DNA from: Bacteriovorax sp.
GTDB taxonomy: Bacteria; Bdellovibrionota; Bacteriovoracia; Bacteriovoracales; Bacteriovoracaceae
Length of the DNA stretch: 64,000 nucleotides
Assembly: GCA_018060625.1 (NCBI GenBank)
Contig: JAGOVS010000001.1
Span: 1-64,000, forward strand
Reading direction: 5' to 3'
Within the stretch, counting starts at the first letter, position 1. Each line of letters begins with the position of its first letter. The notes under the pieces were generated by a model. That model saw only the letters and a program-made list of their open reading frames with translations, did no database searches and had not been told where the DNA came from. Position numbers and translations under genes: made by a program. Below, in pieces: positions 16,881 through 37,332 of the stretch.

Positions 16881-18038
16881 ATGATTTCAGCAGAAAAATT
16901 TCTAAATCCAGCAAGAGAGTTAGGATTTAATTTTTATACAGGGACACCTTGTTCTTATTTAAAACCTTTTATTAATTATGTTATTGATACAGATGGTTTT
17001 GATTTTTATGATAGTGTTAATGAAGGAGATGCAGTTGCTATTGCAGCAGGAGCGACTGTTGCGGGCAAACGTGCAGTGGTAATGTTTCAAAACTCTGGTC
17101 TTGGAAATGCCGTTAATCCTCTGACATCCCTCACGTATACCTTTAATCTTCCAGTGATGGTTATAACAACTCTTCGGGGAGAGCCTGGAGGAGCAGCTGA
17201 TGAGCCTCAACATGAGCTGATGGGGCAGATAACCATTGCCATGCTTGAAACGATGAAACTTAAATGGGCCTATTTTCCACAGACAGAAGAAGAAGTGATA
17301 CCAGCACTTTCGGCAGCTGATGAGTATATGAAAAAAAACAATCAGCCCTTTGTTTTTGTCATGAGAAAAGATGATATTTCTGATTACAAACTTCAGAAAA
17401 AGGCGGCCCCTTCTAAAAAAGATTTCTCGATAAATCATGCAGATCATTTTGAGCTAGATTATAAACAGCGTACAACGAGAACTCCAGTCTTAGAAGTCGT
17501 GCAAAAGGTTCTCGGCCAAAAGGTCGCGGTCATTGCAACTACAGGGAAAACGGGACGAGAACTTTATGAAGTTGGAGATCTGGAGAATCAATTCTATATG
17601 GTTGGTTCGATGGGGTGCGCACTGGCCTTCGGGTTTGGCTTGGCCATTTCCAAACCTTCACTAAAGGTTTTGGTCATTGACGGAGATGGCGCCCTGTTAA
17701 TGCGAACAGGTTCAATGGCCACGGTTGGAGCTTATCAACCAAAGAACCTCATTCATCTTCTCATTGATAATGAGGCCCATGACTCTACAGGAGGACAAGG
17801 AACGGTTACAGGTGGGGTCTCTTTTGGGGCCATTGCCAAAGGTTTTGGTTATGAAAAAGTTTTCACAACCGATTTATTAGAAAAATTTAATTCGATACTG
17901 TCTGAAGTAAATACGAATTCTGGTTCAGTTTTCATTCATCTTAAAGCGCAAAAAGGATCACCTGAAAAACTGGGAAGACCAAAAGTCACTCCGGCAGAAG
18001 TCTCTCTTCGCTTTGCTGAATTTGTGAGAAGAGGTTAA
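16881..18038 (+). CDS. aepY: Phosphonopyruvate decarboxylase (thiamine diphosphate)
   Basis: It converts phosphonopyruvate to phosphonoacetaldehyde, the step that drives the unfavourable mutase equilibrium. The 385 residues include the conserved catalytic region NEGDA (47-51), the signature QNSGLGNAVNPLTSL (70-84), and a C-terminal ThDP/Mg motif GDG (268-270) with N297. All match known Ppd enzymes in position and length. It lies between the mutase and the transaminase, three bases before the latter. Confidence 0.95.
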   Translation: MISAEKFLNPARELGFNFYTGTPCSYLKPFINYVIDTDGFDFYDSVNEGDAVAIAAGATVAGKRAVVMFQNSGLGNAVNPLTSLTYTFNLPVMVITTLRGEPGGAADEPQHELMGQITIAMLETMKLKWAYFPQTEEEVIPALSAADEYMKKNNQPFVFVMRKDDISDYKLQKKAAPSKKDFSINHADHFELDYKQRTTRTPVLEVVQKVLGQKVAVIATTGKTGRELYEVGDLENQFYMVGSMGCALAFGFGLAISKPSLKVLVIDGDGALLMRTGSMATVGAYQPKNLIHLLIDNEAHDSTGGQGTVTGGVSFGAIAKGFGYEKVFTTDLLEKFNSILSEVNTNSGSVFIHLKAQKGSPEKLGRPKVTPAEVSLRFAEFVRRG

Positions 18039-18040
18039 TC

Positions 18041-19153
18041 ATGAGTCAAGTGAGAAGAAATATACTCCTAAATCCTGGGCCGGCAACCACAACTGACACA
18101 GTTAAAAAGGCCATGGTTGTCCCAGATATTTGTCCGCGTGAGTTAGAATTTGGCGAACTGACTCTTTCAGTTCGCAATGACCTCATTAAGGCCGCTCATG
18201 GTGAAAAAAATCACACATGTGTGATGCTTACTTCTTCAGGGACGGGAGGAGTTGAAGCTTGTCTTACTTCAGTTGTTCCTCAAGATAAAAAAGTGCTTAT
18301 TCTTAATAATGGAGCCTATGGTGAGAGAATGCAGAAGATTTGTGATGCTTATGGAGTAGCTCACATTGATTATAATCAAGTCAGGGGAAAAGCATTGGAT
18401 CTCGCCGATGTAGAAGATCTATTGGTGAAGCATTCAGGAGAGATTAGCCATCTCGCTTTTATCCATCATGAGACCACCGTCGGAATTCTTAATCCTCTTT
18501 CGGCCATTTCACAATTGGCCAACAAATATAATGCAGAAATCATTGTAGATGCGATGTCTTCTTTTGCTGGAGTGATGATCGATGTGGAAAAAGATAATAT
18601 TCATTATCTGATTTCATCATCTAATAAATGCATCCAGGGGATGGCAGGAATAAGTTTTGTGATCGCGAATTTAAAATCACTTTTAAAAACAAAAGAGATT
18701 AAGGCACGAAATTTTTATTTTAATTTGTTAGAAAATCATTTGTACTTAGAGAAAAACAAGCAATTTCTCTTCACTCCTCCAGTTCAAACGCTCTATGCTT
18801 TAAGACAGGCCATTAATGAATATTTTGAAGAGGGGCCAGAGAATCGTTTTGCTCGTTATTCATCTATGTACGAGATAATGAAGAAAAAAATTGTTGAACT
18901 TGGCTTTCAGTTTCTCGTTGAAGAAAAAGACCATGCGAAATTGTTAACGGCTATCGTAGATCCAGAAAGTCCTCATTATTCCTTCAATGAAATGCATGAT
19001 TATTTATTCGAGCGTGGCTTTACTATCTACCCTGGTAAGGTTGGGAATGCTAATACCTTCAGGCTCTCAAATATTGGCGCCATTTATCCGAAAGATATAG
19101 AAGATTTCTTGAAAGTATTTGAAGAATACTTGCGTATGAAAAAAATAATTTAA
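18041..19153 (+). CDS. phnW: 2-aminoethylphosphonate transaminase
   Basis: A class-V-fold PLP enzyme of 370 residues. The start LLNPGPATTTDTVK is typical of the AEP transaminase/alanine-glyoxylate group. The PLP lysine is K196 in SSSNKCIQG, and D170 in the preceding IIVDAMSS strand contacts the cofactor. In this setting, beside PEP mutase and Ppd, it should run in the biosynthetic direction and aminate phosphonoacetaldehyde to 2-aminoethylphosphonate, rather than degrade AEP. No phosphonatase or C-P lyase genes are nearby, which supports biosynthesis. Confidence 0.92.
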   Translation: MSQVRRNILLNPGPATTTDTVKKAMVVPDICPRELEFGELTLSVRNDLIKAAHGEKNHTCVMLTSSGTGGVEACLTSVVPQDKKVLILNNGAYGERMQKICDAYGVAHIDYNQVRGKALDLADVEDLLVKHSGEISHLAFIHHETTVGILNPLSAISQLANKYNAEIIVDAMSSFAGVMIDVEKDNIHYLISSSNKCIQGMAGISFVIANLKSLLKTKEIKARNFYFNLLENHLYLEKNKQFLFTPPVQTLYALRQAINEYFEEGPENRFARYSSMYEIMKKKIVELGFQFLVEEKDHAKLLTAIVDPESPHYSFNEMHDYLFERGFTIYPGKVGNANTFRLSNIGAIYPKDIEDFLKVFEEYLRMKKII

Positions 19154-19154
19154 A

Positions 19155-19754
19155 ATGCTAAATAGGAAACTTTCAAAAAGCATTGAAACCTTTTACGCGG
19201 AAATGTCCCAGGTCTTTAGCGATTTTCAGCAGAAAAGTATGCTGGCCTGCCCGCCTGGTTGTGGGCAGTGTTGTTTTAAACCAGATATCTGTTGTTCACC
19301 TTTTGAGTTACTTCCACTTGCTCTGCATTTGCTTGATGTAGGTCTTGCTGAGTTCTTTTTAGAGAAAGCAAGAGATCAAAAAGATGGGCGTTGTCCTTTG
19401 TTAGAAATTGAAGATGAGAAGAGTGGAAAAGGCAGATGTACGCAGTATGCTTATCGTCCCTTTATTTGCAGGGCCTTTGGCGTCAGCGCTCGTTATGGAA
19501 AAATGAGCAAAATTGATTACTCCATCTGTCGCGTGCTAAAATTAAATAATGAACATTCAGCAGCACTCACTCATGCTTATGATGAAGTTCCGTTTATTGA
19601 AATTTGGAGAAAGAAGTTTGAAGTGCTTAATCCTCATTTGCAAGAAAGGGAAATACCTATAAACCAAGCACTCGCTATTGTTTTAGAGAAGGTGTTAATT
19701 TGGAATTCTTATCAGATTGCCAGTTCCCCTGATGATACTTACTTTTCGATCTGA
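19155..19754 (+). CDS. YkgJ-family cysteine-cluster protein
   Basis: The protein has 199 residues with the family's metal-chelating pattern: CPPGCGQCCF near residue 35, a further CC pair, CPLLE, and CRAFG. YkgJ proteins probably bind Zn or an Fe-S cluster; no reaction is established. It begins one base after the transaminase stop and so belongs to the phosphonate operon by position. Whether it takes part in phosphonate metabolism is unknown. Its end overlaps the opposing L,D-transpeptidase gene by 16 bases. Confidence 0.85.
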   Translation: MLNRKLSKSIETFYAEMSQVFSDFQQKSMLACPPGCGQCCFKPDICCSPFELLPLALHLLDVGLAEFFLEKARDQKDGRCPLLEIEDEKSGKGRCTQYAYRPFICRAFGVSARYGKMSKIDYSICRVLKLNNEHSAALTHAYDEVPFIEIWRKKFEVLNPHLQEREIPINQALAIVLEKVLIWNSYQIASSPDDTYFSI

Positions 19755-20380
19755 GAGGGACAGATTTCAACTAATGTTTTAAGAGAAATGAGAGTGTACA
19801 TTTCATCAATGTTTTCATTTGTCATGGCCATGCATCCCCGGGTCCAATTGATACCCATGGATTGAGCTTTTGTGATTCCGATTCTTTTGAAACGCTCCCC
19901 GATGCTTTCGTTGGCATTTACATTAGGCAGGCCGTGAAACATTATTTCACTACCGGGAAGCTTGCCTTGCGAGTGAGCGTATTCACTTTCTTCTTTATTG
20001 GGGTAGGAAATCTGCAAGCTTTTGTAGTATTTACTTTCAGGGTTTTTCTCCGCAATAAAATAGTGTCCTTCAGGGGTTTTTAAGTCTCCTTCAAATTGTT
20101 TGGCCCCGATGGGATTTTTACCGAAAACAACAGGATAAATTCTGACAATTTTGTTACCAGAAAAAAGGAAAACTTTTTGATTCATTTTTGAAACGACGAT
20201 ATAATCAATTTTTCCAATTAAAGAAGCAGTATTATTAACTAATGTGGTGTTTAGAGTATCTTCTTGAAGGCAGTAGTTTCGACTGTTTTTAACTTTTTTA
20301 AAATAATCTAAGCTTTGGGCCTTGAGTGAATTAAATGAACCGAGAAGAAACGCTAAAAAGAGAATAAAAAAGGCATTCAT
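19739..20380 (-). CDS. Secreted L,D-transpeptidase (YkuD/ErfK family)
   Basis: The protein has 213 residues with a signal peptide (about 1-21). The YkuD catalytic domain (about 60-205) has H149 in MFHG and the nucleophile C183 in NWTRGCMAM, the family's HG...[ST]xGC arrangement. Such enzymes form 3-3 cross-links in peptidoglycan or attach proteins to it; predatory bacteria carry many for remodelling prey and own walls. AGGAGATCCT precedes the ATG. It is transcribed against the phosphonate operon. Confidence 0.88.
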   Translation of the reverse strand: MNAFFILFLAFLLGSFNSLKAQSLDYFKKVKNSRNYCLQEDTLNTTLVNNTASLIGKIDYIVVSKMNQKVFLFSGNKIVRIYPVVFGKNPIGAKQFEGDLKTPEGHYFIAEKNPESKYYKSLQISYPNKEESEYAHSQGKLPGSEIMFHGLPNVNANESIGERFKRIGITKAQSMGINWTRGCMAMTNENIDEMYTLISLKTLVEICPSQIEK

Positions 20381-20554
20381 AGGATCTCCTAAGGGATGAG
20401 TAAGCTTTATAACAAAAGAAATTTAAGGCAAGAAGTGAAGATGTAAACTTTCCTCTCTAGTGATCATAAAGATTGAAGATTTTTGCTCATTTTTTGGCAG
20501 TAAGTGCTAACATCTCTTTTAAAAGTCAATTATACTAAGGATTGGAGGTATTTC

Positions 20555-20788
20555 ATGGCCCAGTATTTTTTCGAAGCAGCCAACGAAGGTCAGCTCATTA
20601 AGGCAATCTCAAAACTTCAATTAATTGATTCAAATATTGAGATAAAACAAAAAAAAGAGCTAACACCCTTTGAGTCTGATCTTTCCGTTATTATTGAGTT
20701 AGATGCAAATTATGAAGAAGTTCTCTCTCGTCTTTCGGATATAAAAAACTTGGATCGACCCTTAGAAACGATACGACCTTTGCAATAG
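20555..20788 (+). CDS. Small protein of unknown function (77 residues)
   Basis: The start ATG at 20555 has a strong GGAGG seven bases upstream and a TATACT at 20531-20536 that could be a -10. The protein is acidic to neutral, without a signal peptide or cysteines, with a predicted alpha/beta character. No family recognised. It lies 194 bases ahead of the NRPS-PKS genes on the same strand, but nothing shows that it belongs with them. Confidence 0.65.
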   Translation: MAQYFFEAANEGQLIKAISKLQLIDSNIEIKQKKELTPFESDLSVIIELDANYEEVLSRLSDIKNLDRPLETIRPLQ

Positions 20789-20926
20789 GTCGATTTTAAA
20801 ACCATAAAATAAGTTTACCTTTCTTTAGAGCATTTCAAAAATGGCTGTTTCAACCACCTTGGTCGGTAACAATCTCACCTAAATTCAACAATATAGAGTG
20901 ATTTTATTTAATTAAAATTGTATTCC

Positions 20927-20950
20927 TGATTAAATGATTAAATGATTAAT
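20927..20950 (+). repeat. Three tandem TGATTAA octamers upstream of the NRPS-PKS genes
   Basis: TGATTAAA, TGATTAAA and TGATTAAT follow each other without a gap, 33 bases before the first possible start of the synthetase. This may be a regulatory site or simple AT-rich drift. The rest of the 20789-20982 gap is AT-rich with no clear promoter. Confidence 0.6.
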
Positions 20951-20982
20951 TTATCTATGCCGATAAGTAAGCGAAAGCGCAT

Positions 20983-23900
20983 GTGGGTAACGATGAATGG
21001 TTAGTGGAAATGATTAAAAAAATGAAATCAATAGGTTCTTTATTTTATGAATCAGTCATGAATCATAAAAACAATATTGCTCTCATCGATAAAAATTTTC
21101 AAGTGTCTTACCAAGATCTCTATAAACGAGCTTCTCAAATAAGTGTAGCTCTCGACAAAAAAAGTGAAGTACAGGATGTCGTTGCGGTATGTACTGAAAA
21201 AAATCAATATGCCATTTATTCACTCTTGGGAATTATGCAATCAGGCCGAGTGTATTTGCCAATCGATTTGGAATATCCAGAGGATCGAATAAAGTTTCTA
21301 CTCTTAGACTCTGATGCAAAACTTATCTTAGTGGATTATGCCACACATGAAAAAGTTTCAAAAATGATCAGGGAGCATCAACTCAAAATAGAAGTTATTT
21401 GTGTGCCAGACTTAAAAAATAGTTCGGTCTCTAGAGATTATCTAAATTCAGTATCCGAAAATGACCTTGCATATCTCATTTACACATCAGGTTCGACAGG
21501 GTTACCGAAGGGAGTAGAGGTTGAGCATCGCCAGTTATTTCCCTTGTTAGATTGGTGCAATCAGAAAACGATGGCCCTTCATTGTTTATCAACGTTACAA
21601 TATTCTCCTTTAAGTTTTGATCCTTCATTGCTTGAAATTCTGACTACTCTGTTGAATGGTAAAACGTTATTCCTGCTAGATACTAAACAACGAAAAGATA
21701 TTTCCTTTTTGCTTACATTTATTATTGCCAACAACATTGAAAGGATCTTTGTTCCGATAGCTATTTTGAATTTGTTATCTGAGGAAATGCTTGATAGTCA
21801 TAAAATTCCAACGGCATTGAGAGAAATCAATTGCGGTGGCGATAGGATGGTCATTTCAGAGGCGATACGTTTGGCGTTGAAGAAAATGCCAGGGATTCGA
21901 GTCAATAATCAGTACGGACCAACTGAGGCAAGTATAATGGTCACCAACAATATTCTCATTGGTAATCCGGATCAATGGCCTCAATACCCGGGCCTTGGAG
22001 AAGGAATTGAGGGTGTCGAGTTGATGGTTGTAGATGAGAAATTTGAAAAAGCAGATAAGGGAGAATTATTATTAAGTGGAGATATGCTTGCTCGTGGTTA
22101 TAGAAATAGAGCGGAGCTAACGATAGAGAAATTTATTTTTTTAAATGGTAAGCGGTATTATCGAACGGGGGATTTGGTTAACCGTGAGCTTAATGGAATT
22201 AATTTTTTAGGAAGAATTGACAATCAGCTAAAAATCAATGGAGTCCGATTAGAGAGAGGGGAAATTGAAAATGCAATTGCGCAATTTTTAATGATTCCTC
22301 AAGTCGCTGTAGAGCATGTTATCGATAAAGAGTTGAGCTACTTGGTTGCTTTTATCCCCTCCCGGTTTAATAATATTGAGCTAAAAAAATACCTTTTAGG
22401 TCAATTGCCTTCAGCGATTGTTCCAAATGATTTTATTGAAGTAAGCGAATTTCCGCTAACATCAAATGGAAAGATTAACCATAGATTGTTAATTGAGAAT
22501 TATTTGAAACAGAAGAATGCTTCTGCTCAAAGTAGATTGAAGATTGATTCAGAGAACGAAATAGTCGATGTTTTTAAAAAGGTATTGGGCCTTTCTTATC
22601 TAACAGATGAAAATTCATTTTTTGAATTGGGAGGGACATCGCTCCAAGCTATCAATGCCTTGAGGCTCATTAACAAAATTCCAGGGGTTAAGATAACGAT
22701 CGCTGATTTTTACTCTCATCCTACAGCTGAAAAAATCTTAAAGTTAAAAAATAAATCAATGTCGTTACTCATTCAAAAAGAAGGGAAGAAGGACCATTTA
22801 AATAACCGTCAAGTAGCGATTGTCGGGATGTCCTGTCGATTTCCACATGCAGAAAACCTAGAAAGCTTCTGGCAACTCATTTTAAATAAAGAATCAGGGA
22901 TTGATACTTTTCAAAGAGAAGAAATGCTCAAAGAGGCATTGTCATCAGAGACAAAAGAGCGCAACTATGTATTTGCGAGAGGGATTTTACAAAACATTGA
23001 TCACTTTGATGCGAATTTTTTCGATGTTTCTCCTAGGACAGCAGAACTTTTTGATCCTCAAATGAGGCTAATGCTAGAGGAAGCCGTTCATGGATTAGAG
23101 GCCGCAGGAGTTGCTTCTTATAAATCTGATGAAAAAATTGGTGTCTATGTAGGAATGTCTAATAATAACTATTTAGAGCAAATTAAAGAGATGCATCCCG
23201 AAAAATTAAAGTCCATTGGAGACTGGTCAGTGGCCCTTTTGAATGAAAAAGATTATGTGGCGACACATATTTCTCATAAGCTTAATTTGCGTGGGCCATC
23301 GCTATCAATTCACACGGCATGCTCTACTTCTCTCGTCGCTATTATTAATGCTTATCGTGCCATTGTTGATGGGGACTGTGATATTGCCCTTGCTGGAGGA
23401 GTGAACATAAACTCTCTGGGGAAAGTGGGGCATTTATACAGCGAGGGGGGAATTCATTCCAAAGATGGGCAAACAAGAAGTTTTGATGAAAGTTGCTCTG
23501 GTACCGTTTTTAGTGATGGTGTTGGGATTGTAGTACTTAAAGACTTAGATAGGGCCATTGAAGATGGTGATCAAATATATGCCCTTGTGAAGGGAGCAGC
23601 CGTTAATAATGATGGAAAAAATAAAAAAAGTTTTACAGCGCCAAGTGTTGATGGGCAAAAAGAGGTCGTTCAGGAAGCCACTCTAAATGCTCAGATTGAT
23701 CCCTACACTATAGAATTGATTGAGGCCCATGGAACTGGAACACCAGTAGGTGACCCAATAGAAGTTCAGGCCTTATGCGAAGCTTGGGAAGAAATTGGAG
23801 ATGTCAAATTAGGCTCAAGGACGGCATTGGGGAGTGTTAAAAGTCAAATAGGTCATACCGTTGCGGCATCAGGTGTGGCGGGATTAATAAAGGCGACGCT

Positions 23901-26900
23901 TGCGATTAAGTATAAAACTATTCCAGCATCAATTAATTTTGAAAAATTAAACCCACTTATAGAATTAGAAAAGTCCCCATTTTATATCAATACCAAAAAT
24001 AAAAAATGGGATTCGATATTCCCAGTTAGGCGGGCCGCAGTTTCATCTTTTGGTGTAGGTGGAACAAATGCTCATCTTATTTTAGAAGAGTACCAACCTT
24101 CATTATCTATAAATGAAAAAAATGAAAATTCTTTGAAACAACCATTTTATCTTTTTTGTTACTCTGCCCGATCACCTCAGGCGCTTATTAGTTGTCTGAT
24201 GCAATGGAGAGATTTTTTAGGAGATAAAAAAAATGATTCATATTCCTTAGAGGATTTATCTTATTCATTGTATGTTGGAAGAAATGATTATGAGTTTCGA
24301 GTAAGTTTTGTCATTGAAAATCGGGAGCAACTAATTAGTGAGATTAGTAAGAAAATTAACCTCCCTTTATCTATTTTGAAAACTAAAAAGGTTAAGTCTC
24401 TTTGGGGTTTTTCTGGACAAGGAGAAGATTGCATTGGACTGGGGATACAATTATATAAAATGGATAGCATCTTCAGAGAATCATTTGATAAGTGTCTAAA
24501 AGTTTTACGTGAAAAACATCAAGTGGATCTATGGGACTTGATGAATAAAGATAATGAACTAAACCAAACAATTTTTTCTCAGCCATATATTTTTTCATAT
24601 CAATACTCGTTGGCCATGGCCTTAATGTCCTTTGGTGCTCGTGCGGATTATTTCCTTGGACACAGTTTGGGAGAATATGTCATAGCCGTTTTGAACGGTA
24701 TTTTTAATTTGGAAGAAGCTCTTGAGTTAGTGGCCAATAGAGCTCGCTTGATGCAGGCAATGCCTTTTGGTTCCATGTTATCAGTAAAAATGTCTGAAAA
24801 TTTCTTGAAAGAAATTCTACAAGAGGCACAACCAGAATTTAAAATCGATATGGCCGTTTTCAACGCAAAGGATCTGATTGTCGTTTCTGGGGAAAAAGAA
24901 GATATAGAGCATTTTGAATCTCTGCTAATTGATCGAGGGATTAAATCAAAAAAACTAAAGACTTCTCACGCTTTTCATTCTCGAATGATGGAGGGAGTTT
25001 TAGATGAATTCGATAAAATATTAGAAAAGACTCATCTTAAACGACCATCTTCAAAAATAGTTTCAACTCTAACAAGCAATTGGGAAGATGAGATTTTTTC
25101 TCAAAAAAACTATTGGAAAGAGCATATCGTTAAACCTGTACGATTTTGGCAGGGGCTAGAGAGAGTGGACGCAGAGCCATTTGATCGGATTATTGACTTT
25201 GGTCCCAGAAATGTTTTTTCACAGCTTTGTTTTCAGACACTCAGTCACAAGCAATCGAGAAAAGAAATTGTGAGTTTATCGGCCAACGAAAAAGGAAATG
25301 AGGCCCGTCAATGGTTAACAGGGGTCGGGAAATTATGGGAAAAAGACATAGAAATTAATTTGTCTCGAATCTTTAAGAATTTAGGGAAAAAAGTTTCAAT
25401 CCCACTTTATCCATTTGAGCATTCATCCTTTTGGGCCGGATACGATTTAGTAAATAACCAAAAGTCATTATTAGAAAATAGAGCTACTGAGAAAGGACTA
25501 ATTATGGATCAGAGAAAAGAGAAAATTTGTGATGATTTGATAAATATTTTTGCTGAAGTCTCGGGCATGAGAAGAGATGAAATTAATCCAGATGCTCAGT
25601 TTTTAGAGCTTGGTTTTGATTCGTTAATGCTAACTCAAATTGCATTGGAGACAGAGCGCTTTTTTCAGGTAAAAGTAAGCTTTAGGCAATTGCTAGAAAC
25701 TTATGTAACGGTGAATTTATTTGCGGATTATATTAATTCACAATTTAAGGGGCCAATGATTGAAGAAGTGATTCCATTAGAGGCTACTTCAACTTCTCCA
25801 TCCACTTTGCATAATCATTATTCAACTAGTCAAAGTGAAATTGAAGGAGTCATTATAAAGCAATTAGAGCTTATGAAGACTCAGCTTGAATTCCTTCAGA
25901 GAGGAAGAGTTAATACAGAGTTACATTCAGTCAAAATGCCTGTGCAAGATTCTTTTAGGCCTAAGGAAAATTCTGCACCTATCACTGAAGAAATCAAGGC
26001 AACTGTTGATACGGCGAAAATTGCTTTTGGAGCACAGGCAAAAATTAAAACAACGAGAAATAATAATAGCTCTAATCATGAAAAAGAAGCTGTTCTAAAC
26101 TTGATGCATAAGTATATTGAAAGGACGAAGTCTTCAAAAGATTTTACCCAAAAACATAGATCGCAGAACGCAGACCCAAGAGTTGTCACCGGTTTTCGAC
26201 CTGAAATAAAAGAAGTTATTTATCCAATAGTAGTCAATCGCTCAAAAGATCAGCATTTATGGGATCTAGATAATAACGAATATATTGACATGATCTGTGG
26301 CTTTGGATCAAATTTTTTTGGTAATCAAAATGTGAGAATAAACAAGGCCCTGCATGAGCAACTTGATAGCGGCTTTGAAATTGGACCACAACATGAATTG
26401 GTTGGAGAGTGTGCATCTTTAATTTGTGAGCTCTCGAAAATGGATCGAGCGGCATTTTGTAATACAGGATCAGAAGCTGTCTTAGGCGCTTTGAGAATTG
26501 CGCGGGCAGTGAGTGGCAGAAAGAAAGTTGTGATGTTCAAAGGCTCTTATCATGGCATCAATGATGAAGTTATAGTGAGAGGTCTTGATGATGGCCGCGC
26601 CATGCCTGCAGCTGCTGGTATTAATCGAACAAGTGTTGCCGACATCATTGTTTTAGAATATGGAACAGAAGCTTCATTGATTCAGATAAGACAAATGGCC
26701 AACGAATTGGCCGCGGTCATTGTAGAACCCGTCCAGTCTAGAAGAACAAATTTTAGACCAATTGAGTTTTTAAGAGAATTGCGTAAAATAACTGAGGACA
26801 CAAAAACGGCATTTATTTTTGATGAAGTTATCACAGGATTTAGAATTGCTCCAGGAGGAGCACAAGAATATTTCGGTATCCGGGCAGATATTGCGACCTA

Positions 26901-27558
26901 TGGAAAAATCATAGGGGGGGGGATGCCGATTGGTGTAATTGCTGGATCTCGAAAATATTTAGATGCTCTTGATGGCGGATTCTGGCAATTTGGAGATGAA
27001 AGTGTTCCTCAAGTAGGTTTGACTTATTTTGCGGGTACATTTGTTCGTCATCCTCTTGCTTTACGGGCCATGCGTGAAGCCCTTCTGATACTCAAAGAAG
27101 GAGGCCAGCTTCTCTACGATAGAATTAACTCAACGGCGAATGAGTTTGTTTATGAGTTAAATTTATTCGCAGAGCTAATGGGGGCCCCTATTGTGATAGA
27201 TCATTTTGGAGGAGTTTTGAAACCAAGATTTCTAGAAAATGGCGAGAATTATGATTTATTTTTCTTGATAATGCGAATGAAAGGGGTTCATTGTTATGAT
27301 GGCTTTCCGTGGTTTATTACCCTTGCTCACACAGATGAAGATTTAAAATTAGTCATGAATAAATACAAAGAAGCAATTATTGAAATGCAAAAACTAAGAC
27401 TTTTCCCAAAGAATATTCAGGCCCATGACCCAGAAGAGAGAGACTATATCACGCCTCCTTGTTTGGGGGCCAAATTAGGAAGAGATGAAAACAATCGTCC
27501 ATGTTGGTTTCAAGAAGATAATGATAAAATTGGAAAGTTAAAGAAGATATTAAAGTAG
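20983..27558 (+). CDS. Hybrid NRPS-PKS: A-PCP-KS-AT-ACP-aminotransferase
   Basis: A 2191-residue megasynthase. Domains: adenylation (about 20-505; YTSGSTG from 167, D213 in the selectivity pocket, YGPTEAS, YRTGDL, NGK lysine); PCP (S553 in LGGTS); ketosynthase (C780 in HTACSTS, H916, H958); acyltransferase (S1228 in GHSLG, HAFH at 1329-1332, which points to malonyl-CoA); ACP (S1547 in GFDSL); a low-complexity linker; class-III PLP aminotransferase (about 1735-2170, K1975). No ketoreductase or dehydratase is present, so the beta-keto group should be transaminated, as in iturin/mycosubtilin-type MycA. D213 suggests an amino-acid starter rather than a fatty acid. The start is uncertain: GTG 20983, ATG 21010 or ATG 21022. 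It is followed one base later by the second synthetase. Confidence 0.93.
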   Translation: MGNDEWLVEMIKKMKSIGSLFYESVMNHKNNIALIDKNFQVSYQDLYKRASQISVALDKKSEVQDVVAVCTEKNQYAIYSLLGIMQSGRVYLPIDLEYPEDRIKFLLLDSDAKLILVDYATHEKVSKMIREHQLKIEVICVPDLKNSSVSRDYLNSVSENDLAYLIYTSGSTGLPKGVEVEHRQLFPLLDWCNQKTMALHCLSTLQYSPLSFDPSLLEILTTLLNGKTLFLLDTKQRKDISFLLTFIIANNIERIFVPIAILNLLSEEMLDSHKIPTALREINCGGDRMVISEAIRLALKKMPGIRVNNQYGPTEASIMVTNNILIGNPDQWPQYPGLGEGIEGVELMVVDEKFEKADKGELLLSGDMLARGYRNRAELTIEKFIFLNGKRYYRTGDLVNRELNGINFLGRIDNQLKINGVRLERGEIENAIAQFLMIPQVAVEHVIDKELSYLVAFIPSRFNNIELKKYLLGQLPSAIVPNDFIEVSEFPLTSNGKINHRLLIENYLKQKNASAQSRLKIDSENEIVDVFKKVLGLSYLTDENSFFELGGTSLQAINALRLINKIPGVKITIADFYSHPTAEKILKLKNKSMSLLIQKEGKKDHLNNRQVAIVGMSCRFPHAENLESFWQLILNKESGIDTFQREEMLKEALSSETKERNYVFARGILQNIDHFDANFFDVSPRTAELFDPQMRLMLEEAVHGLEAAGVASYKSDEKIGVYVGMSNNNYLEQIKEMHPEKLKSIGDWSVALLNEKDYVATHISHKLNLRGPSLSIHTACSTSLVAIINAYRAIVDGDCDIALAGGVNINSLGKVGHLYSEGGIHSKDGQTRSFDESCSGTVFSDGVGIVVLKDLDRAIEDGDQIYALVKGAAVNNDGKNKKSFTAPSVDGQKEVVQEATLNAQIDPYTIELIEAHGTGTPVGDPIEVQALCEAWEEIGDVKLGSRTALGSVKSQIGHTVAASGVAGLIKATLAIKYKTIPASINFEKLNPLIELEKSPFYINTKNKKWDSIFPVRRAAVSSFGVGGTNAHLILEEYQPSLSINEKNENSLKQPFYLFCYSARSPQALISCLMQWRDFLGDKKNDSYSLEDLSYSLYVGRNDYEFRVSFVIENREQLISEISKKINLPLSILKTKKVKSLWGFSGQGEDCIGLGIQLYKMDSIFRESFDKCLKVLREKHQVDLWDLMNKDNELNQTIFSQPYIFSYQYSLAMALMSFGARADYFLGHSLGEYVIAVLNGIFNLEEALELVANRARLMQAMPFGSMLSVKMSENFLKEILQEAQPEFKIDMAVFNAKDLIVVSGEKEDIEHFESLLIDRGIKSKKLKTSHAFHSRMMEGVLDEFDKILEKTHLKRPSSKIVSTLTSNWEDEIFSQKNYWKEHIVKPVRFWQGLERVDAEPFDRIIDFGPRNVFSQLCFQTLSHKQSRKEIVSLSANEKGNEARQWLTGVGKLWEKDIEINLSRIFKNLGKKVSIPLYPFEHSSFWAGYDLVNNQKSLLENRATEKGLIMDQRKEKICDDLINIFAEVSGMRRDEINPDAQFLELGFDSLMLTQIALETERFFQVKVSFRQLLETYVTVNLFADYINSQFKGPMIEEVIPLEATSTSPSTLHNHYSTSQSEIEGVIIKQLELMKTQLEFLQRGRVNTELHSVKMPVQDSFRPKENSAPITEEIKATVDTAKIAFGAQAKIKTTRNNNSSNHEKEAVLNLMHKYIERTKSSKDFTQKHRSQNADPRVVTGFRPEIKEVIYPIVVNRSKDQHLWDLDNNEYIDMICGFGSNFFGNQNVRINKALHEQLDSGFEIGPQHELVGECASLICELSKMDRAAFCNTGSEAVLGALRIARAVSGRKKVVMFKGSYHGINDEVIVRGLDDGRAMPAAAGINRTSVADIIVLEYGTEASLIQIRQMANELAAVIVEPVQSRRTNFRPIEFLRELRKITEDTKTAFIFDEVITGFRIAPGGAQEYFGIRADIATYGKIIGGGMPIGVIAGSRKYLDALDGGFWQFGDESVPQVGLTYFAGTFVRHPLALRAMREALLILKEGGQLLYDRINSTANEFVYELNLFAELMGAPIVIDHFGGVLKPRFLENGENYDLFFLIMRMKGVHCYDGFPWFITLAHTDEDLKLVMNKYKEAIIEMQKLRLFPKNIQAHDPEERDYITPPCLGAKLGRDENNRPCWFQEDNDKIGKLKKILK

Positions 27559-27559
27559 C

Positions 27560-30500
27560 ATGAATATATATTTATCAAATTATTTAAATGTCACTAAAGA
27601 TGAAGAATTTTTATTGGCAGTCCCAACCACAGAATCTCAACGAGAGATCTGGAATTCTATTTCATTTGAACCAATGGCCAGTCTTGCCTTTAATGAGTCT
27701 ATCGTTATTGAATTTGATGGTGTGCTTGATATTTTTGCACTCAAGAAGGGCATCAACGATCTTATTGAAAGACACACCATTCTTAGATCCGTTTTTTCAT
27801 CAGATGGACAATATCAATTTGTGAGAAAGAATTTCACTTTTGACTTAAGTCATTTTGACATTTCAACAGAAATGAATCCGTCATCAATATTCAGAAAAAT
27901 TCAAGAAGATGAAATAAATAGAGAGTTTGATTTAGTTTATGGGCCAATTATTCGTTTTCTATTAGTCACAGAATCAAGTGACAAGAACTATCTTCTCATA
28001 TCGGCCCATCATCTTATTTGTGATGGATGGTCTTGGGCGGCCATTAATTCTGACTTAGGTTATTTTTACAATTGTCACAAATTCAATAGGCTCCCTCAGC
28101 TGAAACCGGCTTATCAGTTTTGGCAATTTGTCCAAAAACAAAGAGAGTTTAAGGCCGAAAATGAAAGAAGTATTCAGTACTGGAAAAATCAATTTGAAAC
28201 AATCCCAAGTCCTATAAATTTTCCCTTAGAAAAAGTGAGACCTTTAGTCCGCTCTTTTGAGTCAAAAAGATATGATCAGAAAATTGAGTCAAGTATCGTA
28301 AAGAATCTCAAAAGAAGAAGTATTGAGTGGGGAGTAAGTCCCTATCAATTAATTTATTCTCTCTATCTTGTGGCCCTCTATGAAATTACTGGTCAGAGAG
28401 ATTTGGTCGTTGGTATTTCTACTGCAGGCCAGAGCTTGGTTGGCAAAAAGGATCTAGTCGGACATTGTGTGTCGCTGCTACCCATTCGTTTTGTTGTTGA
28501 TGATCGATTTACTTTTAAGCAACATGCTCAAAATGTAAAAAAGGTTATGCTAGACGCATTAGAAAATCAATATTGTACCTTTGGAGAAATACTAAGAAGC
28601 TTAAGACTCGAGAGAGACGTTTCAAGTATCCCTCTCGTAAGTTGCGTTTTTAATATTGATATCCAGCCCGCCAATCAAGGGTTAAATTTTGAAGATTTAA
28701 AAGCGCGGTTTTCAACAGGAAAACGGAATTTTGAAAATTTTGAAATGTTTTCCAATCTTACAATGATTGGAGATCAGATGACGGTTGAAGTTCAATATAG
28801 TATGAATATTTTCTATCAACACCAAATTCAAAAATGGATAAATGTATTCACCTCTTTATTGGAAAATGTTTCAAGTGAGAATTTTAGTATTAATGAACTA
28901 TTGCCTAGCGTTGATTTTGTTCCGAGCACTGAAAATAAGAAAAGAGTAGACCATAATGTGAATACAGGACTAAAAAATTTTCAGTATCGCCAAGAAGTTC
29001 GGGAGAGGTTAAAAGGCATTTGGGAAGCGTTGCTTGATCGTTATGATGGTGTGGAAATAAATGATGATAGCAACTTTTTCAATTTAGGAGGACACTCTCT
29101 AATTGTTTCCGACATGATTGTTGAAATTCAAAAATGTTTTTCACTGAAAATAACAATGAAGGATATTTTTTTGAATCCTCAGTTGGGTCGTCTCGCAGAA
29201 GTCCTTTCAGTTAAATCCTTAGGTACAAAAACGGATAATCCCTTTGAAATAAAATCACACTATAAAGGAGGTCTTGCTCCGCTTTCTTGGCAGCAAATGC
29301 GTTGTTGGTATATTCAGAAACTCAATCCGGATTCTTCTCTTTTTAATTTAGCGGCTATGTTTCATATTCACGGGGCAGTTGACAAGGGATTGTTTCGAGA
29401 GGCCCTCTTTCTTTTCTTAGATCGACATTTAATGACTCGAGCAAAATTGGTTCTTCAGGATGGTATGCCTTATTTTAAATTTATAAAATCTTCTCAAGTC
29501 GTTATCGAAGATCAAGAAATGAATCAGGCAGATTCAAAAAAACTGAAAGAAGATCTACACTTACAATTAGATTCTTTTTCAAGGGCCCCCATCGATCTAG
29601 ATAAAGATCCTCTGTTTTATGGAAAGATCTATTTTAATGGTGATCGAGACATCTTTTTTTATACAAAGATACATCATCTTATATGGGATGGATGGAGCTA
29701 TGATATTTTGATGGAAGAGTTGGCAAGCATCTATAGCAAACTTCAAAAAAATGGATCGTTTGAACAGGTTGAGAAAGAATCCGTCATTACTTATCCTGAC
29801 TATTCTTTATGGCAAGAAGAATTTAAAAAGTCGACTCACTATCAGATAGAGTTTCAATTCTGGAAAGATTATTTAAAAGGGGAGTTACCCGTTCTCGAAT
29901 TACCATTTGACTTTCCAAGGGATGTAAAAAGGTACGATGCAGATGGTTTTTTTGTGAGCTGGAGCGAGGTAGAGGCAAAGACTCTTGAAGAAGTGGCCAT
30001 TAAAAACGGGACGACTTTATTTAGTTTATTAATGACCGCGTTCAAAATTCTTTTATCTCGTTATACAGGGATTGAGGATATAATTGTTGGCACACCTGTA
30101 CGAGGGAGACATCTGGAAGGTCTCAATTCGCTTATTGGTTATTTTGTAAATTCAGTGGCAGTGAGATCACAGATAAGTTCTCAGAAGTCATTTACCCATA
30201 ATTTAAAAAAAGTCAGTGAAAATCTCATTTCTGTTTTTGATCATTCCAACGTTCCCTTCGATGAGATTGTTAAAGAATTGAAAGTGGCCAGGAATCCTTT
30301 TCATACACCTGTCTATCAAGCTTTCATGATGTTTCAAGATGCTACCGCACGTAATGTAAAGTTTTTAGATTATGATTTTTCAGTAGTTCCATTCATCAGG
30401 GGTTCATCTCATACCGATTTAGACTTATGGATAAGACGAGATTCACATGGTATGAAAGGCGGCTTTGACTTTGACATCCATCGGTTTAAAAGGGAAACAA

Positions 30501-33208
30501 TAGAACGTTTAGCTGATGACTTTAAAGCATTATTAACAAAAATTTCCTCTTGTGATGAATTACCATTAAAGGAGATTGATTGGATTTCCACAACAAATAG
30601 CAGTTTTTTAATCAATCAAGATAATGAGAATAAGGTGAATATTGCTCCCAATTCTCTTCTACCTCAATTATTTGAGTCGCAAGTAGATCTTTTTGGCGGC
30701 CATGTTGCGGCAAGTTCTTCAGGCTTAAGTTTTACTTACAAAGAATTAAGTGAGCAATCTGATAGGCTTGCTCATTGGCTTCACTCACTGGGAGTAGGGG
30801 AGGGGAAGGTTGTAGGAGTTGCCCATAAACGCAATGCTCGACTTCCGCTGGTCCTTTTAGGAATTATCAAAACTGGATGCGCATATGTGCCCCTTGATCC
30901 TGATTATCCCCAAGATCGCCTCGATTATATGATTCAAAATTCAGGAATTGATATTGTGATTGGCGACCAGGATTCGATTCGTTCAACAGCATTTATAGGA
31001 TTGCAAAAAGTCGGCACCGATCAAGAAGAGGATTTTTGGGGTACAATTAAAAAGGCAAAATTTGAAAAGGAAATAAATCCAAAAAGTCTTTGTTATATTA
31101 TCTACACATCTGGCTCAACGGGATTACCCAAAGGTGTATCCGTGACCCATTCAAGTGTCGCTAATTTTTTATTGTCAATGAAGAAAACTCCCGGCATTAA
31201 ATCAAGTGATCGTCTTTGTGCAATCACTACATTAAATTTTGATATTGCTGTTTTGGAAATTTATCTTCCACTTATTTGTGGAGCAGAGTCACATATTGTC
31301 CCTAAAGAAATTTCAATGTTTGCCGAGAGTCTTTCAGAAGAATTAGTGAGGGAGAAAATAACCATTCTGCAGGCAACTCCGGCCACGTGGAAGCAACTTT
31401 TAAATGAAGGGACAAAACACACAGGAATCAAGGCCTTGTGTGGGGGAGAGGCATTAGGTTACGAATTAGCACAAGGTATTTTACAATCTTTCTCTCAGTT
31501 ATGGAATATGTATGGACCGACAGAGACAACTGTTTGGTCAACGTGCAAACAAATTAATAAAAGTGATGTAAAGATAACGTTAGGAAAACCGATTGCTAAT
31601 ACAAAGATATATATCCTTAACGAAAACGGAGAAATCTGTCCAGTTGGAGTTGTTGGTGAAATTCACATAGGTGGCCATGGGCTGGCCGTAGGATATTATA
31701 AACGAGACGAATTGACTAAAGAACGTTTTGTTTCTTCATCACTTTCTAAAGAATCTAAAGGCGAACGATTATACAGAACAGGTGACCTAGGCAAAATAAA
31801 TCCTCAAGGCGAATTAGAATGCGTTGGTAGGAATGATGGTCAAGTTAAGGTTAGAGGTTTTCGAATTGAACTTGGAGAAATTGAATCGGTAGTTTCTCAA
31901 TTTGAAAGTATTCAAGAAAATGTAATAATGGCAAAAGAAATACGAGAGGGAGATGTTCGGATTGTTTGTTATTATAAAACAGATTCTCTCCATTCTCAAT
32001 TTGAGACAAAACTTAGAAAATGGATTAGTGAAAAGCTGCCTTCCTATATGATGCCTTCAAATTTTCATCGCATGGAATTCTTCCCTCTGACCTTAAATGG
32101 AAAAATTGACAAGAAAAAGTTACCAGATGTTTTCTCTCATCTTCTAAAAAATGACCCAATGACTGTTGATGATCAGAATGAAGTCCTTGAAGGAAATGAC
32201 ATTTACAATCGACTAGCGAGGATTTGGATTTCTGAACTTGGAGTTAATGAAGTAAAAAGCGAAGATGATTTTTTTGATCTGGGTGGGCACTCATTGCTAT
32301 CGATCAGAGTTTTTGCAAAAATTGAAAAGGAGTTTGGGATTAAGTTACCGCTCTCGAGTCTTTTTCATTATTCCGTATTTGGAAAATTGGTTAAGAATAT
32401 TGAAGAAAAACTGAGATCAACTGAAGTTGTTAGTTCAGATGAGAAAAAGTGGGAACCTATTTCTCTGACTGAAATGCGTATTGGAAAAAGTAAGGAAAAT
32501 CCCATTTATTTTTTTCATGCAGTCGGTGGCAATACACTTAATTATCGCATCCTTTTAGATTATATTGATAGTGATTATCGCATTTATGGACTGCAGGCAC
32601 CAGGTGTGAATGGAGAAAATAAATTGGCCGAATCCATCATTGAATTGGCCGTTTTATATGCCCGGGAAATTGAATTTTCTCTCAAAGGAGAAAAGTCCTG
32701 CATTTTAATTGGTGGGTCAATGGGAGGATTAATTGCGATTGAAACCGCAAGGATTCTGAAAGAAAAAGGAATTGAAATTGAAAAATTGATCATGTTTGAT
32801 ACGTTTGGACCTAACCTTGATTTGAACAAATGCGCACCAGAAGCAAAAAACACTCTACTTCGAATTTGCGATTTTTTAAAAAATAGATCACGCTATTTTA
32901 TAAATCGCTTAAAAAGAGAGTTCTATCTTTCACGCAAAATTCCCCTGCCTCACGATTTACGTTATTACTTTATTGAAATTAATAATTATCAACTCATTCA
33001 TAGACATAAAATAAGACCTTACAACGGGAAGGTTTATATTATGAGAATGCCAATTGATTCAAAAGGTCCTTATGCAGATCCCGATTTGGGATGGAAAAAT
33101 GTACTTCTGGGAGAAGTTGTCTTTACTTATATTGATGGGGTTAATCATGTTAACTTTGTTGAATCTCCAGTGACTGCTTACGAATTGGGGAAGTTTTTAA
33201 AGAAATAG
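27560..33208 (+). CDS. NRPS: C-PCP-C-A-PCP-TE, first module without an A domain
   Basis: The protein has 1882 residues. Domains: condensation 1 (HHLICDG, H150-H151, D155); PCP 1 (S513 in LGGHS); condensation 2 (HHLIWDG, H705-H706, D710); adenylation (YTSGSTG from 1182, YGPTETT, YRTGDL); PCP 2 (S1578 in LGGHS); thioesterase (S1720 in GGSMGG, D1747, H1863). All catalytic residues are present, so both C domains and the TE look active. Only a short linker separates C1 from PCP1, so that module must be loaded in trans or skipped. The hand-read A-domain code D-I-L-A-L-G-M-V-W resembles glycine codes but is tentative. The TE releases the product. No phosphopantetheinyl transferase or exporter is adjacent. 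Confidence 0.93.
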   Translation: MNIYLSNYLNVTKDEEFLLAVPTTESQREIWNSISFEPMASLAFNESIVIEFDGVLDIFALKKGINDLIERHTILRSVFSSDGQYQFVRKNFTFDLSHFDISTEMNPSSIFRKIQEDEINREFDLVYGPIIRFLLVTESSDKNYLLISAHHLICDGWSWAAINSDLGYFYNCHKFNRLPQLKPAYQFWQFVQKQREFKAENERSIQYWKNQFETIPSPINFPLEKVRPLVRSFESKRYDQKIESSIVKNLKRRSIEWGVSPYQLIYSLYLVALYEITGQRDLVVGISTAGQSLVGKKDLVGHCVSLLPIRFVVDDRFTFKQHAQNVKKVMLDALENQYCTFGEILRSLRLERDVSSIPLVSCVFNIDIQPANQGLNFEDLKARFSTGKRNFENFEMFSNLTMIGDQMTVEVQYSMNIFYQHQIQKWINVFTSLLENVSSENFSINELLPSVDFVPSTENKKRVDHNVNTGLKNFQYRQEVRERLKGIWEALLDRYDGVEINDDSNFFNLGGHSLIVSDMIVEIQKCFSLKITMKDIFLNPQLGRLAEVLSVKSLGTKTDNPFEIKSHYKGGLAPLSWQQMRCWYIQKLNPDSSLFNLAAMFHIHGAVDKGLFREALFLFLDRHLMTRAKLVLQDGMPYFKFIKSSQVVIEDQEMNQADSKKLKEDLHLQLDSFSRAPIDLDKDPLFYGKIYFNGDRDIFFYTKIHHLIWDGWSYDILMEELASIYSKLQKNGSFEQVEKESVITYPDYSLWQEEFKKSTHYQIEFQFWKDYLKGELPVLELPFDFPRDVKRYDADGFFVSWSEVEAKTLEEVAIKNGTTLFSLLMTAFKILLSRYTGIEDIIVGTPVRGRHLEGLNSLIGYFVNSVAVRSQISSQKSFTHNLKKVSENLISVFDHSNVPFDEIVKELKVARNPFHTPVYQAFMMFQDATARNVKFLDYDFSVVPFIRGSSHTDLDLWIRRDSHGMKGGFDFDIHRFKRETIERLADDFKALLTKISSCDELPLKEIDWISTTNSSFLINQDNENKVNIAPNSLLPQLFESQVDLFGGHVAASSSGLSFTYKELSEQSDRLAHWLHSLGVGEGKVVGVAHKRNARLPLVLLGIIKTGCAYVPLDPDYPQDRLDYMIQNSGIDIVIGDQDSIRSTAFIGLQKVGTDQEEDFWGTIKKAKFEKEINPKSLCYIIYTSGSTGLPKGVSVTHSSVANFLLSMKKTPGIKSSDRLCAITTLNFDIAVLEIYLPLICGAESHIVPKEISMFAESLSEELVREKITILQATPATWKQLLNEGTKHTGIKALCGGEALGYELAQGILQSFSQLWNMYGPTETTVWSTCKQINKSDVKITLGKPIANTKIYILNENGEICPVGVVGEIHIGGHGLAVGYYKRDELTKERFVSSSLSKESKGERLYRTGDLGKINPQGELECVGRNDGQVKVRGFRIELGEIESVVSQFESIQENVIMAKEIREGDVRIVCYYKTDSLHSQFETKLRKWISEKLPSYMMPSNFHRMEFFPLTLNGKIDKKKLPDVFSHLLKNDPMTVDDQNEVLEGNDIYNRLARIWISELGVNEVKSEDDFFDLGGHSLLSIRVFAKIEKEFGIKLPLSSLFHYSVFGKLVKNIEEKLRSTEVVSSDEKKWEPISLTEMRIGKSKENPIYFFHAVGGNTLNYRILLDYIDSDYRIYGLQAPGVNGENKLAESIIELAVLYAREIEFSLKGEKSCILIGGSMGGLIAIETARILKEKGIEIEKLIMFDTFGPNLDLNKCAPEAKNTLLRICDFLKNRSRYFINRLKREFYLSRKIPLPHDLRYYFIEINNYQLIHRHKIRPYNGKVYIMRMPIDSKGPYADPDLGWKNVLLGEVVFTYIDGVNHVNFVESPVTAYELGKFLKK

Positions 33209-33212
33209 GTCA

Positions 33213-34112
33213 TTAGAGCTCTTGTGCCCAGGTGTAGGTAATACCAAAACTTCGATAGAGAGGAGAATTAATATTTTTTCCTAATATTGTGGAGTCTGAA
33301 TAACTGATTCCCCAAGTTTCTTTACGATTGACACTCCAATTAACAAAAGTACTGAAGTCCCAAAAATATTCTTTTGAAGATGTACTGGCATATTGTCCTT
33401 CGACACTTTTTTCCTCTTGGAAATTCCAGGTTGTAGTTAATCCCGTAGAGAATGGGGAGCTCTCAAGGGTATAAACGATTCCCAGGGGAAAAAGTATTTT
33501 GTGATAATCTTTTAATCTCCCGCCAGGGAAATGTTGACCAAAAAAATGTTGACCCTCAATGCCTGCCTTGAGGGAATAGTTTTTCACTTTTTTGATGAAG
33601 GAAGAACCAAGAGAGAGTGTGTAAAGTCCAGGACCTCTCACGTCGCTATAAAGGGAAGAGTGTGAGTTGTAGAGGCTACGAGAGTTAGGAATCGTGAGCT
33701 TACTGTAGATAAACCCTCTGGGGCGATAGGTAGAATAGGTGTATTCTGGCATAAATTCAAAATTAACTTGAAGATCAAGATCTCCAAGCCCCTGGCTTTT
33801 TTCACGCCGCCCCTGTTTTTTCATTGTTTTTTGGACAAGTGAGGATTTAATGGCCAATTGAAATGAGTCATTCATTTGTCTTTGGTATTGAAAGTGAAGA
33901 GTGGATTGTTGATCTATAATTGAATCATCGTGAAAGAGGGCAATCCCTTCTCTGTCTGTTTGTCCAAGATCATTTCGCCAAGCAAGTCCTAATGCCCATT
34001 CTTCCTTATTGTCCCCTAAAATAATCAAAGAAGAACTTGATCCCCCTCCACAGCAAGAAGAAGCGAAAAGAGATTTAGATAGAAAAATAAAAAGAAGTGC
34101 TAGGTATTTCAT
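33213..34112 (-). CDS. Outer-membrane beta-barrel-like protein
   Basis: The protein has 299 residues with a signal peptide (about 1-17) followed by SSCCGGGSSSS. The rest is made of alternating, aromatic-rich strands (for example LHFQYQRQ, TWGISYSDS) typical of an outer-membrane barrel. No named family is recognised. It is the last gene of a three-gene minus-strand unit with a FixH/YtkA-like lipoprotein and a thioredoxin-like protein. A second barrel protein with its own FixH-like partner is encoded divergently. The CCGGG segment could bind a metal, which is a guess. Confidence 0.65.
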   Translation of the reverse strand: MKYLALLFIFLSKSLFASSCCGGGSSSSLIILGDNKEEWALGLAWRNDLGQTDREGIALFHDDSIIDQQSTLHFQYQRQMNDSFQLAIKSSLVQKTMKKQGRREKSQGLGDLDLQVNFEFMPEYTYSTYRPRGFIYSKLTIPNSRSLYNSHSSLYSDVRGPGLYTLSLGSSFIKKVKNYSLKAGIEGQHFFGQHFPGGRLKDYHKILFPLGIVYTLESSPFSTGLTTTWNFQEEKSVEGQYASTSSKEYFWDFSTFVNWSVNRKETWGISYSDSTILGKNINSPLYRSFGITYTWAQEL

Positions 34113-35665: not shown

Positions 35666-36655
35666 ATGAGATATCTCTTCAGTCTTTTTTTCATTTTAAT
35701 GTTTTGCTCTCGTCTCTTTGCCTACGAACATGAGTTTGTTGTAACTGATGTAGCAAGTGATGAGAGCATCCAAATCCAAAGACTTGATAAACAGATTCAG
35801 CTTTTTCCCGGCGATGTTCTCGCTGTCTTTTCTCATGAAACTAAAAAAGTTTTGGGATATGCTCGTGTTGATTCGATCACTGATCACTCAGATCTTTTTA
35901 TTGCGATAGTGGAAACTCATAATAAAAATGGAATTATCCGTGCGGAAAATTATCTTAAGAAATTAGATTTAACCAAAACGGCAAATGATATTCCTGCCCG
36001 CTATGATTTGATTTACAAAGAAGGCAGCAAAACAGCAGCAAAGTATCGCCCGCTTGTTTATGCAGGTCTTATTCATGGTATGACAGCAGCAAGTCTTTCA
36101 AAAAAAGAATTTTTGGTAGGCCCCTCTATACTTGCATATGGCATAACCTCGAATGTTCAAATTGATCTTAATCTTGCTTCGACTCTTTTTGGTGTTACCA
36201 ATATTGGTTTGAAAAATAAATTTATCGATAATGATGATTTCGAGTTATCCATTGAGAATGGATTTCAGTATTATTCCTCATCTCATAATAAGTTCTCTTA
36301 TCAATTCACAGGATATTTAGACATGGCCTCTAATTCCAACGTGAAGTCTTTTGCTAAATTTAAAGTATTCACTAAAAAGCCTCAAGATCAATCCATAAAT
36401 AATAATGAAGAGTATCAAAGGGATTTAAACTTTGAATTACAATTGGCCTATGGATACCTTTTTTCTAATTGGAACCAGATGATTTTTGGACCGAAGGTTG
36501 ATGTTAACAAAAAGCGCGTTGGTGGAATTGTTGGTTATTATATGATTGAAAAAAATTTCAGTACTATGTTTGGAGTTTCTTCAAATGATTTTTCTGAATT
36601 TCGCTTAGGAAAGCAAGGATATCTTCTTAATCTCGATTTTTGGTGGAGATTTTAG
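35666..36655 (+). CDS. Outer-membrane beta-barrel-like protein
   Basis: The protein has 329 residues from the ATG at 35666 (a TTG just before is less likely). The signal peptide ends near residue 19 (LFAY). The N-terminal part (20-115) is a small soluble beta domain. The rest is a run of amphipathic strands ending in WWRF, with the C-terminal phenylalanine typical of BAM-inserted porins. Function unknown. It pairs with the upstream FixH-like gene, six bases away. The stop overlaps the opposing mtnC stop by four bases. Confidence 0.68.
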   Translation: MRYLFSLFFILMFCSRLFAYEHEFVVTDVASDESIQIQRLDKQIQLFPGDVLAVFSHETKKVLGYARVDSITDHSDLFIAIVETHNKNGIIRAENYLKKLDLTKTANDIPARYDLIYKEGSKTAAKYRPLVYAGLIHGMTAASLSKKEFLVGPSILAYGITSNVQIDLNLASTLFGVTNIGLKNKFIDNDDFELSIENGFQYYSSSHNKFSYQFTGYLDMASNSNVKSFAKFKVFTKKPQDQSINNNEEYQRDLNFELQLAYGYLFSNWNQMIFGPKVDVNKKRVGGIVGYYMIEKNFSTMFGVSSNDFSEFRLGKQGYLLNLDFWWRF

Positions 36656-37332
36656 AGGATAACATCATTAAAAGTATGGATTTGGCGATGACCCTCAATG
36701 GGGATTTCTCCTAATCTCACTAACTGTAATGTTTTCATTCCAGCAACTTGTGCAGCCGACAATTCTTGACTTATGTCTGATAAGAAAAGGACATCACAAG
36801 CTTCTTCATTTATATGAGAAAGAATCGTTTGGTATGAAAGTGGATCGCGCTTATGTCCAACCAATGTATCGAAATGATGAGTAAAATAGGAGTTTAAGTC
36901 TCCAAATAAGGAATGACCAAATAAAGATCGCTGGGCCTCAACTGAGCCGGAAGAATAGATTCCTAGTTTCAGGCCTTGTTCGTGCCATTTTTTTAAAGCG
37001 GGAGGGACATCATCATAGACATGTCCCTTAAGTTCACCTGATTGATAACCTTCTTCCCAAATTAGACCTTGTAGTTGTTTTAGGGCCTTATGCTTGCGAT
37101 CGATATTAATCCATTCGATGAGTTTTTGAATAACACCATCCTCATCAAGCTCAAGAGATTCTTCCTCTCTTGCTGTTTGTTTGGTTTCTTCGATAATTTC
37201 TTTTGTGGGACTGAAGTCTTTATTTTTATGTACAAAACTCTGCAAATACTTTTTAGAATAGGGAAATAAAATTTCGTGGACGAAGCTGATTGATGTCGTT
37301 GTTCCTTCGATGTCCATTAAAATATATTTCAT
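36652..37332 (-). CDS. mtnC: Acireductone synthase (enolase-phosphatase)
   Basis: A HAD-family enzyme of 226 residues. It enolises and dephosphorylates 2,3-diketo-5-methylthiopentyl-1-phosphate to acireductone in methionine salvage. The N-terminal MDIEGTTTSI carries the nucleophile aspartate in the form typical of MtnC. The SSGSVEAQ motif and a C-terminal FLSDI with acidic residues complete the HAD signature. Its start overlaps the mtnD stop (ATGA). Confidence 0.93.
   Translation of the reverse strand: MKYILMDIEGTTTSISFVHEILFPYSKKYLQSFVHKNKDFSPTKEIIEETKQTAREEESLELDEDGVIQKLIEWINIDRKHKALKQLQGLIWEEGYQSGELKGHVYDDVPPALKKWHEQGLKLGIYSSGSVEAQRSLFGHSLFGDLNSYFTHHFDTLVGHKRDPLSYQTILSHINEEACDVLFLSDISQELSAAQVAGMKTLQLVRLGEIPIEGHRQIHTFNDVIL

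Follow-up and report, generated by a model that had tools for sequence, protein, structure and literature searches.

An intact hybrid NRPS-PKS gene pair in Bacteriovorax sp. with relatives in exopolysaccharide loci and a proposed very short peptide product

To our knowledge, the aminotransferase-bearing PKS-NRPS assembly lines described so far start from a fatty or aryl acid and make toxins or lipopeptides. In the mycosubtilin synthetase MycA, the malonyl transferase FenF acts in trans (PMC3039948), while in the puwainaphycin enzyme PuwE a PKS module with an aminotransferase domain feeds an NRPS module (PMC4219810). Here we describe a synthetase gene pair from a stretch of 64,000 nucleotides of Bacteriovorax sp. 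DNA (the window) and its relatives in the same bacterial family. The explanation that best fits the whole, and on which we place about even confidence, is that the pair encodes an intact hybrid NRPS-PKS that would make a very short peptide, which may serve an exopolysaccharide (EPS).

The two genes are intact open reading frames (Table 1), and Pfam places each domain above its cut-off, giving A-PCP-KS-AT-ACP-Aminotran_3 for gene 1 and C-PCP-C-A-PCP-Thioesterase for gene 2. With NRPS and PKS modules intact, an AT in cis and a TE, the pair is a cis-AT PKS-NRPS hybrid, and the open reading frames of the window include no additional NRPS gene downstream of gene 2. All catalytic residues checked are present, including KS Cys/His/His, AT Ser and HAFH, the AMT lysine in YGKIIGGG, the carrier serines, both HHxxxDG motifs, and TE Ser/His. 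They are invariant across 20-22 aligned relatives wherever the domain exists, and alignment gaps at these positions are confined to relatives with a gene cut or split or a domain missing. An earlier note on this DNA had read the domain order and the catalytic residues correctly, but two features of the architecture went unremarked: the first C-PCP of gene 2 has no A domain, and A2, the only A domain beside the two PCPs of this gene, carries a glycine code.

Table 1. Positions in the window of the synthetase pair, its domains and the inferred insertion
Feature	Position	Strand	Basis
Block absent at the same spot in two congeners (YkuD gene and synthetase pair)	19755..33212		inferred insertion
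YkuD-type L,D-transpeptidase gene, divergent from synthetase, within insertion	19739..20380	-	locus comparison
Synthetase gene 1, A-PCP-KS-AT-ACP-AMT, 2191 aa, GTG start	20983..27558	+	ORF and Pfam
A1, starter amino-acid adenylation domain (by sequence), code DPLFNGQIM(K)	21013..22497	+	Asp235 and A10 Lys present
PCP1	22528..22758	+	Ser in LGGTSL, conserved in all
KS	22798..24102	+	Cys, His, His conserved in all
AT in cis	24388..25332	+	GHSLGEY and SHAFH (malonyl-type motif)
ACP	25498..25752	+	Pfam, carrier serine
AMT, PLP aminotransferase domain of MycA type	26083..27402	+	best PDB match MycA AMT 6kfm
Synthetase gene 2, C-PCP-C-A-PCP-TE, 1882 aa, ATG start	27560..33208	+	ORF and Pfam
C1	27605..28879	+	HHLICDG
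PCP2 of A-less module	28994..29224	+	LGGHSL, Ser conserved in 19/19 scorable loci
C2	29255..30604	+	HHLIWDG
A2, glycine type, code DILQLGMVW(K)	30665..32134	+	identical or near-identical code in every relative
PCP3	32195..32410	+	Pfam, carrier serine
TE	32480..33199	+	GGSMGG

The earlier note had also proposed an iturin/mycosubtilin-like logic, which stands for the KS-AT-ACP-AMT run and fails for the loading step and the AT. Against the PDB, the AMT domain scores 379 bits with the MycA AMT and 175 bits with the best GSA aminomutase (GSAM), and this difference supports the beta-amine logic and the MycA kind of aminotransferase. The solved structures nearest to A1 are amino-acid A domains, those of LgrA and of the tyrocidine and gramicidin synthetases, and its score against TIGR01733 is 302 bits, slightly below the cut-off of 317.4. 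Its sequence places A1 with the amino-acid A domains rather than with the fatty-acyl ligases. The HAFH motif of the AT usually denotes malonyl. A beta-amino-fatty-acid lipopeptide synthetase of the iturin/mycosubtilin type would share the KS-ACP-AMT logic, and gene 1 does have its MycA-type AMT after KS and ACP. Such a synthetase, however, would load through a fatty-acyl (AL) domain, which is absent from the pair, where A1 is of the amino-acid type and keeps Asp235; it would draw on a trans malonyl transferase, as MycA does with FenF (PMC3039948), whereas Acyl_transf_1 lies within gene 1; and it would continue into a long (heptapeptide) NRPS, whereas merely two carriers and one A domain follow here. 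We therefore consider this type highly improbable, and the unusual starter and short downstream part pointed out earlier are borne out as an amino-acid A1 and two downstream carriers.

Given an amino-acid A1, a cis AT and a glycine-coded A2, the likely product, as read from gene content, is X-(beta-amino)-Gly-Gly and not a lipopeptide. A1 would load an amino acid X onto PCP1 (in most relatives the code points to proline), and KS-AT-ACP would add one malonyl unit to give a beta-keto-gamma-amino thioester, in which the AMT would swap the keto group for an amine. From this amino-acyl start, malonyl extension and transamination, we infer a beta,gamma-diamino acid as the acyl unit. C1 and C2 would then add two residues, with A2 probably charging both PCP2 and PCP3 since there seems to be no alternative amino-acid A domain, and the TE would release the peptide or hand it to an acceptor.

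The A-less C-PCP is a real module, because the PCP2 serine is kept in 19 of 19 scorable loci. The A2 code DILQLGMVW, which we take to be glycine by established specificity codes, recurs in nearly all relatives, with near variants in the others. In two relatives that are 99% complete and have the same A-less module (G003 and G020), amino-acid A-domain motifs are missing from the other AMP-binding proteins examined, except for a glycine-coded mini-NRPS in G003, which makes sharing of A2 the simplest reading. One glycine A domain per two PCPs is also found in the mini-NRPS (PCP-C-A-PCP-TE) and, with the domains ordered differently, in the outgroup locus L049. The similarity of PCP2 to PCP3 was rejected as proof of sharing, as 29% is hardly higher than the 26% between PCP1 and PCP2 and is uninformative. 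If PCP2 were instead charged by another enzyme, charged with another residue or skipped, the product would not end in Gly-Gly. A-less modules served in trans occur in other systems, and the window genome, 91% complete, has one more A-PCP-C protein, on contig C162. The latter gene, however, belongs to a cluster of its own with PhyH, AurF-like and MFS genes, and the two near-complete relatives offer no trans amino-acid A domain among the proteins examined, so that we regard other loading of PCP2 as unlikely, while giving it real weight. The full set at that C162 cluster (L013, 3641-11956) comprises PhyH, GT2, MIOX, MFS, the A-PCP-C protein and an AurF-like oxygenase.

Among 129 genomes searched within the family, 25 had a strong match; domain layout assigns 22 of them, with the window genome among these, to the synthetase pair family, at 33-47% identity. 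As 22 genomes carry it, the pair is not a chance finding. Both genes are full in 16, cut by a contig end in four (L045, L065, L079, L083), split in one (L076) and without A1 in one (L080). The split in L076 (3795-9265) divides gene 2 into two frames between C1 and C2; in L080 (4368-9350), gene 1 starts at the PCP with no starter A, and the contig runs on upstream into a Wza-like gene. The three genomes left out (G044, G046, G047) have a KS-AT-ACP-AMT-C layout. A second hybrid family (L046, L047, L048, L050) has a single KS-AT-ACP-AMT-C protein, accompanied by genes for a haem-oxygenase-like protein, a thioesterase and an arylesterase.

The window pair shares the family architecture of two genes, an A-less C-PCP and a glycine-coded A2, and departs from it in the starter. 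Of 18 loci with a readable A1 code, 15 are proline-like (DVQFTAHVV and near variants), a type to which the window A1 does not belong: its code, DPLFNGQIM, is common to L082 from another genus, and L036 has DPMSNAQVI. In trees of both genes, the window, L082 and L036 group together with good support, separately from the proline type. The window and L082 A1 domains are only 36% identical and have the same nine-residue code, which suggests selection for a common substrate. Beyond the family, no close DNA match to the pair was seen in plasmids, a scan of named genomes gave only distant aminotransferase or A-domain matches, and we found no described equivalent in the literature consulted on NRPS within EPS or O-antigen loci, on AMT lines with an amino-acyl start or on Bdellovibrionota clusters, in keeping with the expectation that the pair would have no close known match.

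Across many genera, 15 of the 22 loci have EPS genes on the flanks of the pair. These genes encode a Wza-like SLBB protein, a Wzx-like flippase and GT4 glycosyltransferases, and the EPS locus of L054 additionally holds Wzy, Wzc-like and kinase-like genes. These loci usually have an Sfp-type PPTase gene directly upstream of the pair and the gene for a ~850-1100-aa protein, X1059, directly downstream, and X1059 adjoins the pair in three further loci. Of the 22 genomes with the pair, 21 have X1059, as do 3 of the 107 without it (Fisher p = 6e-20, kinship not corrected), and the copy in the window genome has an apparent signal peptide (by eye). The X1059 of L052 (15336-18572, ~1078 aa) has no Pfam match, and weak GH123 matches occur in one relative. 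Because this placement inside a Wzx/Wzy EPS locus is conserved in relatives, it suggests that the peptide is linked to the polysaccharide or cell coat, where it would serve as a substituent or matrix component. No enzyme joining peptide to sugar was identified. One genome (G005) keeps the EPS locus and X1059 with neither the pair nor the PPTase, so the peptide is dispensable for the polysaccharide.

The pair could also make a free exported small peptide, such as an antibiotic, a signal or a metal binder, the EPS neighbourhood reflecting shared regulation or a hot spot; in the metal-binder version, the vicinal diamine and Gly-Gly could bind Cu or Ni. The relatives' locus also contains TolC-like OEP genes, M28 and S41 peptidases and a 1041-aa protein. 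The pair lies outside an EPS locus in the window genome, G020 and G109, and in the last two, as in outgroup L049, PPTase and M28 adjoin it with no EPS genes. Against these points, EPS genes adjoin the pair in 15 of 22 loci, and a second, different glycine NRPS occurs within another EPS locus: in L149 a second EPS locus encloses the mini-NRPS PCP-C-A(Gly)-PCP-TE, and in L143 a Wzx-like gene adjoins it, whereas L147 and L148 have no EPS genes next to it. We judge the free peptide to be quite possible, short of an even chance, and retain the EPS-linked peptide as the working account.

The window copy sits elsewhere. In two congeners (G006 and G011; loci L145 and L146), the homologues of 19155-19754 and 33213-34112 are immediate neighbours, which identifies the YkuD gene and the pair as an insertion of ~13.4 kb. 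A relic or an assembly artefact might be suspected, given a MAG of 296 contigs and congeners that have no pair at the site, but the 2191- and 1882-aa frames are open with every catalytic residue kept, the base composition of the genes is like that of the rest of the window, and the block is continuous in one contig with conserved-order genes on both flanks, making this very improbable. The pair is on contig C182. The window genome has its EPS locus on C91, in the order Wza-PPTase-X1059, and the place between PPTase and X1059 that the pair usually occupies in relatives holds no synthetase. The 91%-complete genome yielded no second copy of the pair. As the C91 locus is without a pair, the inserted copy may serve it in trans, or its uptake may have had another purpose; for an EPS-linked peptide, it would act in trans.

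Two local associations were considered and rejected. The YkuD gene has no close homologue in the family except its own paralogue on C181, so it is not a conserved partner of the pair. The phosphonate operon upstream (11510-19153) and the flank genes have the same order in congeners without the pair there. This operon encodes a PEP mutase-nucleotidyltransferase, a phosphonopyruvate decarboxylase-like protein, a class V aminotransferase, a TauD-type oxygenase, a CDP-alcohol phosphatidyltransferase and LysE, and looks like one for phosphonolipid synthesis. Between the YkuD gene and gene 1, the window also has a small open frame of about 78 codons (~20555-20790, plus strand, by eye), and a methionine salvage-like set lies at 36652-39750 (HAD hydrolase, ARD, class II aldolase, aminotransferase). 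A search of the 91%-complete window genome for mevalonate and DXP markers of predators turned up neither HMG-CoA synthase nor DXP reductoisomerase.

In its most specific form, our account is of an NRPS-PKS family whose beta,gamma-diamino-Gly-Gly is built into EPS, with one glycine A domain for two carriers and a window copy relocated with altered starter specificity; this full combination we put forward tentatively, as less likely than not. If true, an amino-acid-started line kept family-wide in an EPS locus would present assembly-line peptides as structural decorations of the bacterial coat, and the pair would offer a short, tractable system for a single A domain serving two carriers.

Among known systems, a single A domain also charges several carriers in the yersiniabactin synthetase HMWP2, a precedent by analogy for sharing of A2; HMWP2 differs in using cysteine and heterocyclisation. 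The A domains of the linear gramicidin synthetase LgrA are the nearest solved structures to A1, but A1 feeds a KS rather than a C domain, and the pair has no formylation domain. MycA, ItuA and BmyA (mycosubtilin, iturin and bacillomycin; Bacillus) have in common with gene 1 the KS-ACP-AMT run that installs a beta-amine, and the AMT domain is closest to that of MycA; they differ in using a fatty-acyl ligase and FenF in trans in place of an amino-acid A domain and a cis AT, and in having seven residues downstream in place of two carriers and a glycine code. The cyanobacterial PuwE is similar in that its aminotransferase-bearing PKS module feeds an NRPS module (PMC4219810), and it is set apart by a fatty-acyl start by FAAL, a monooxygenase domain and a long peptide.
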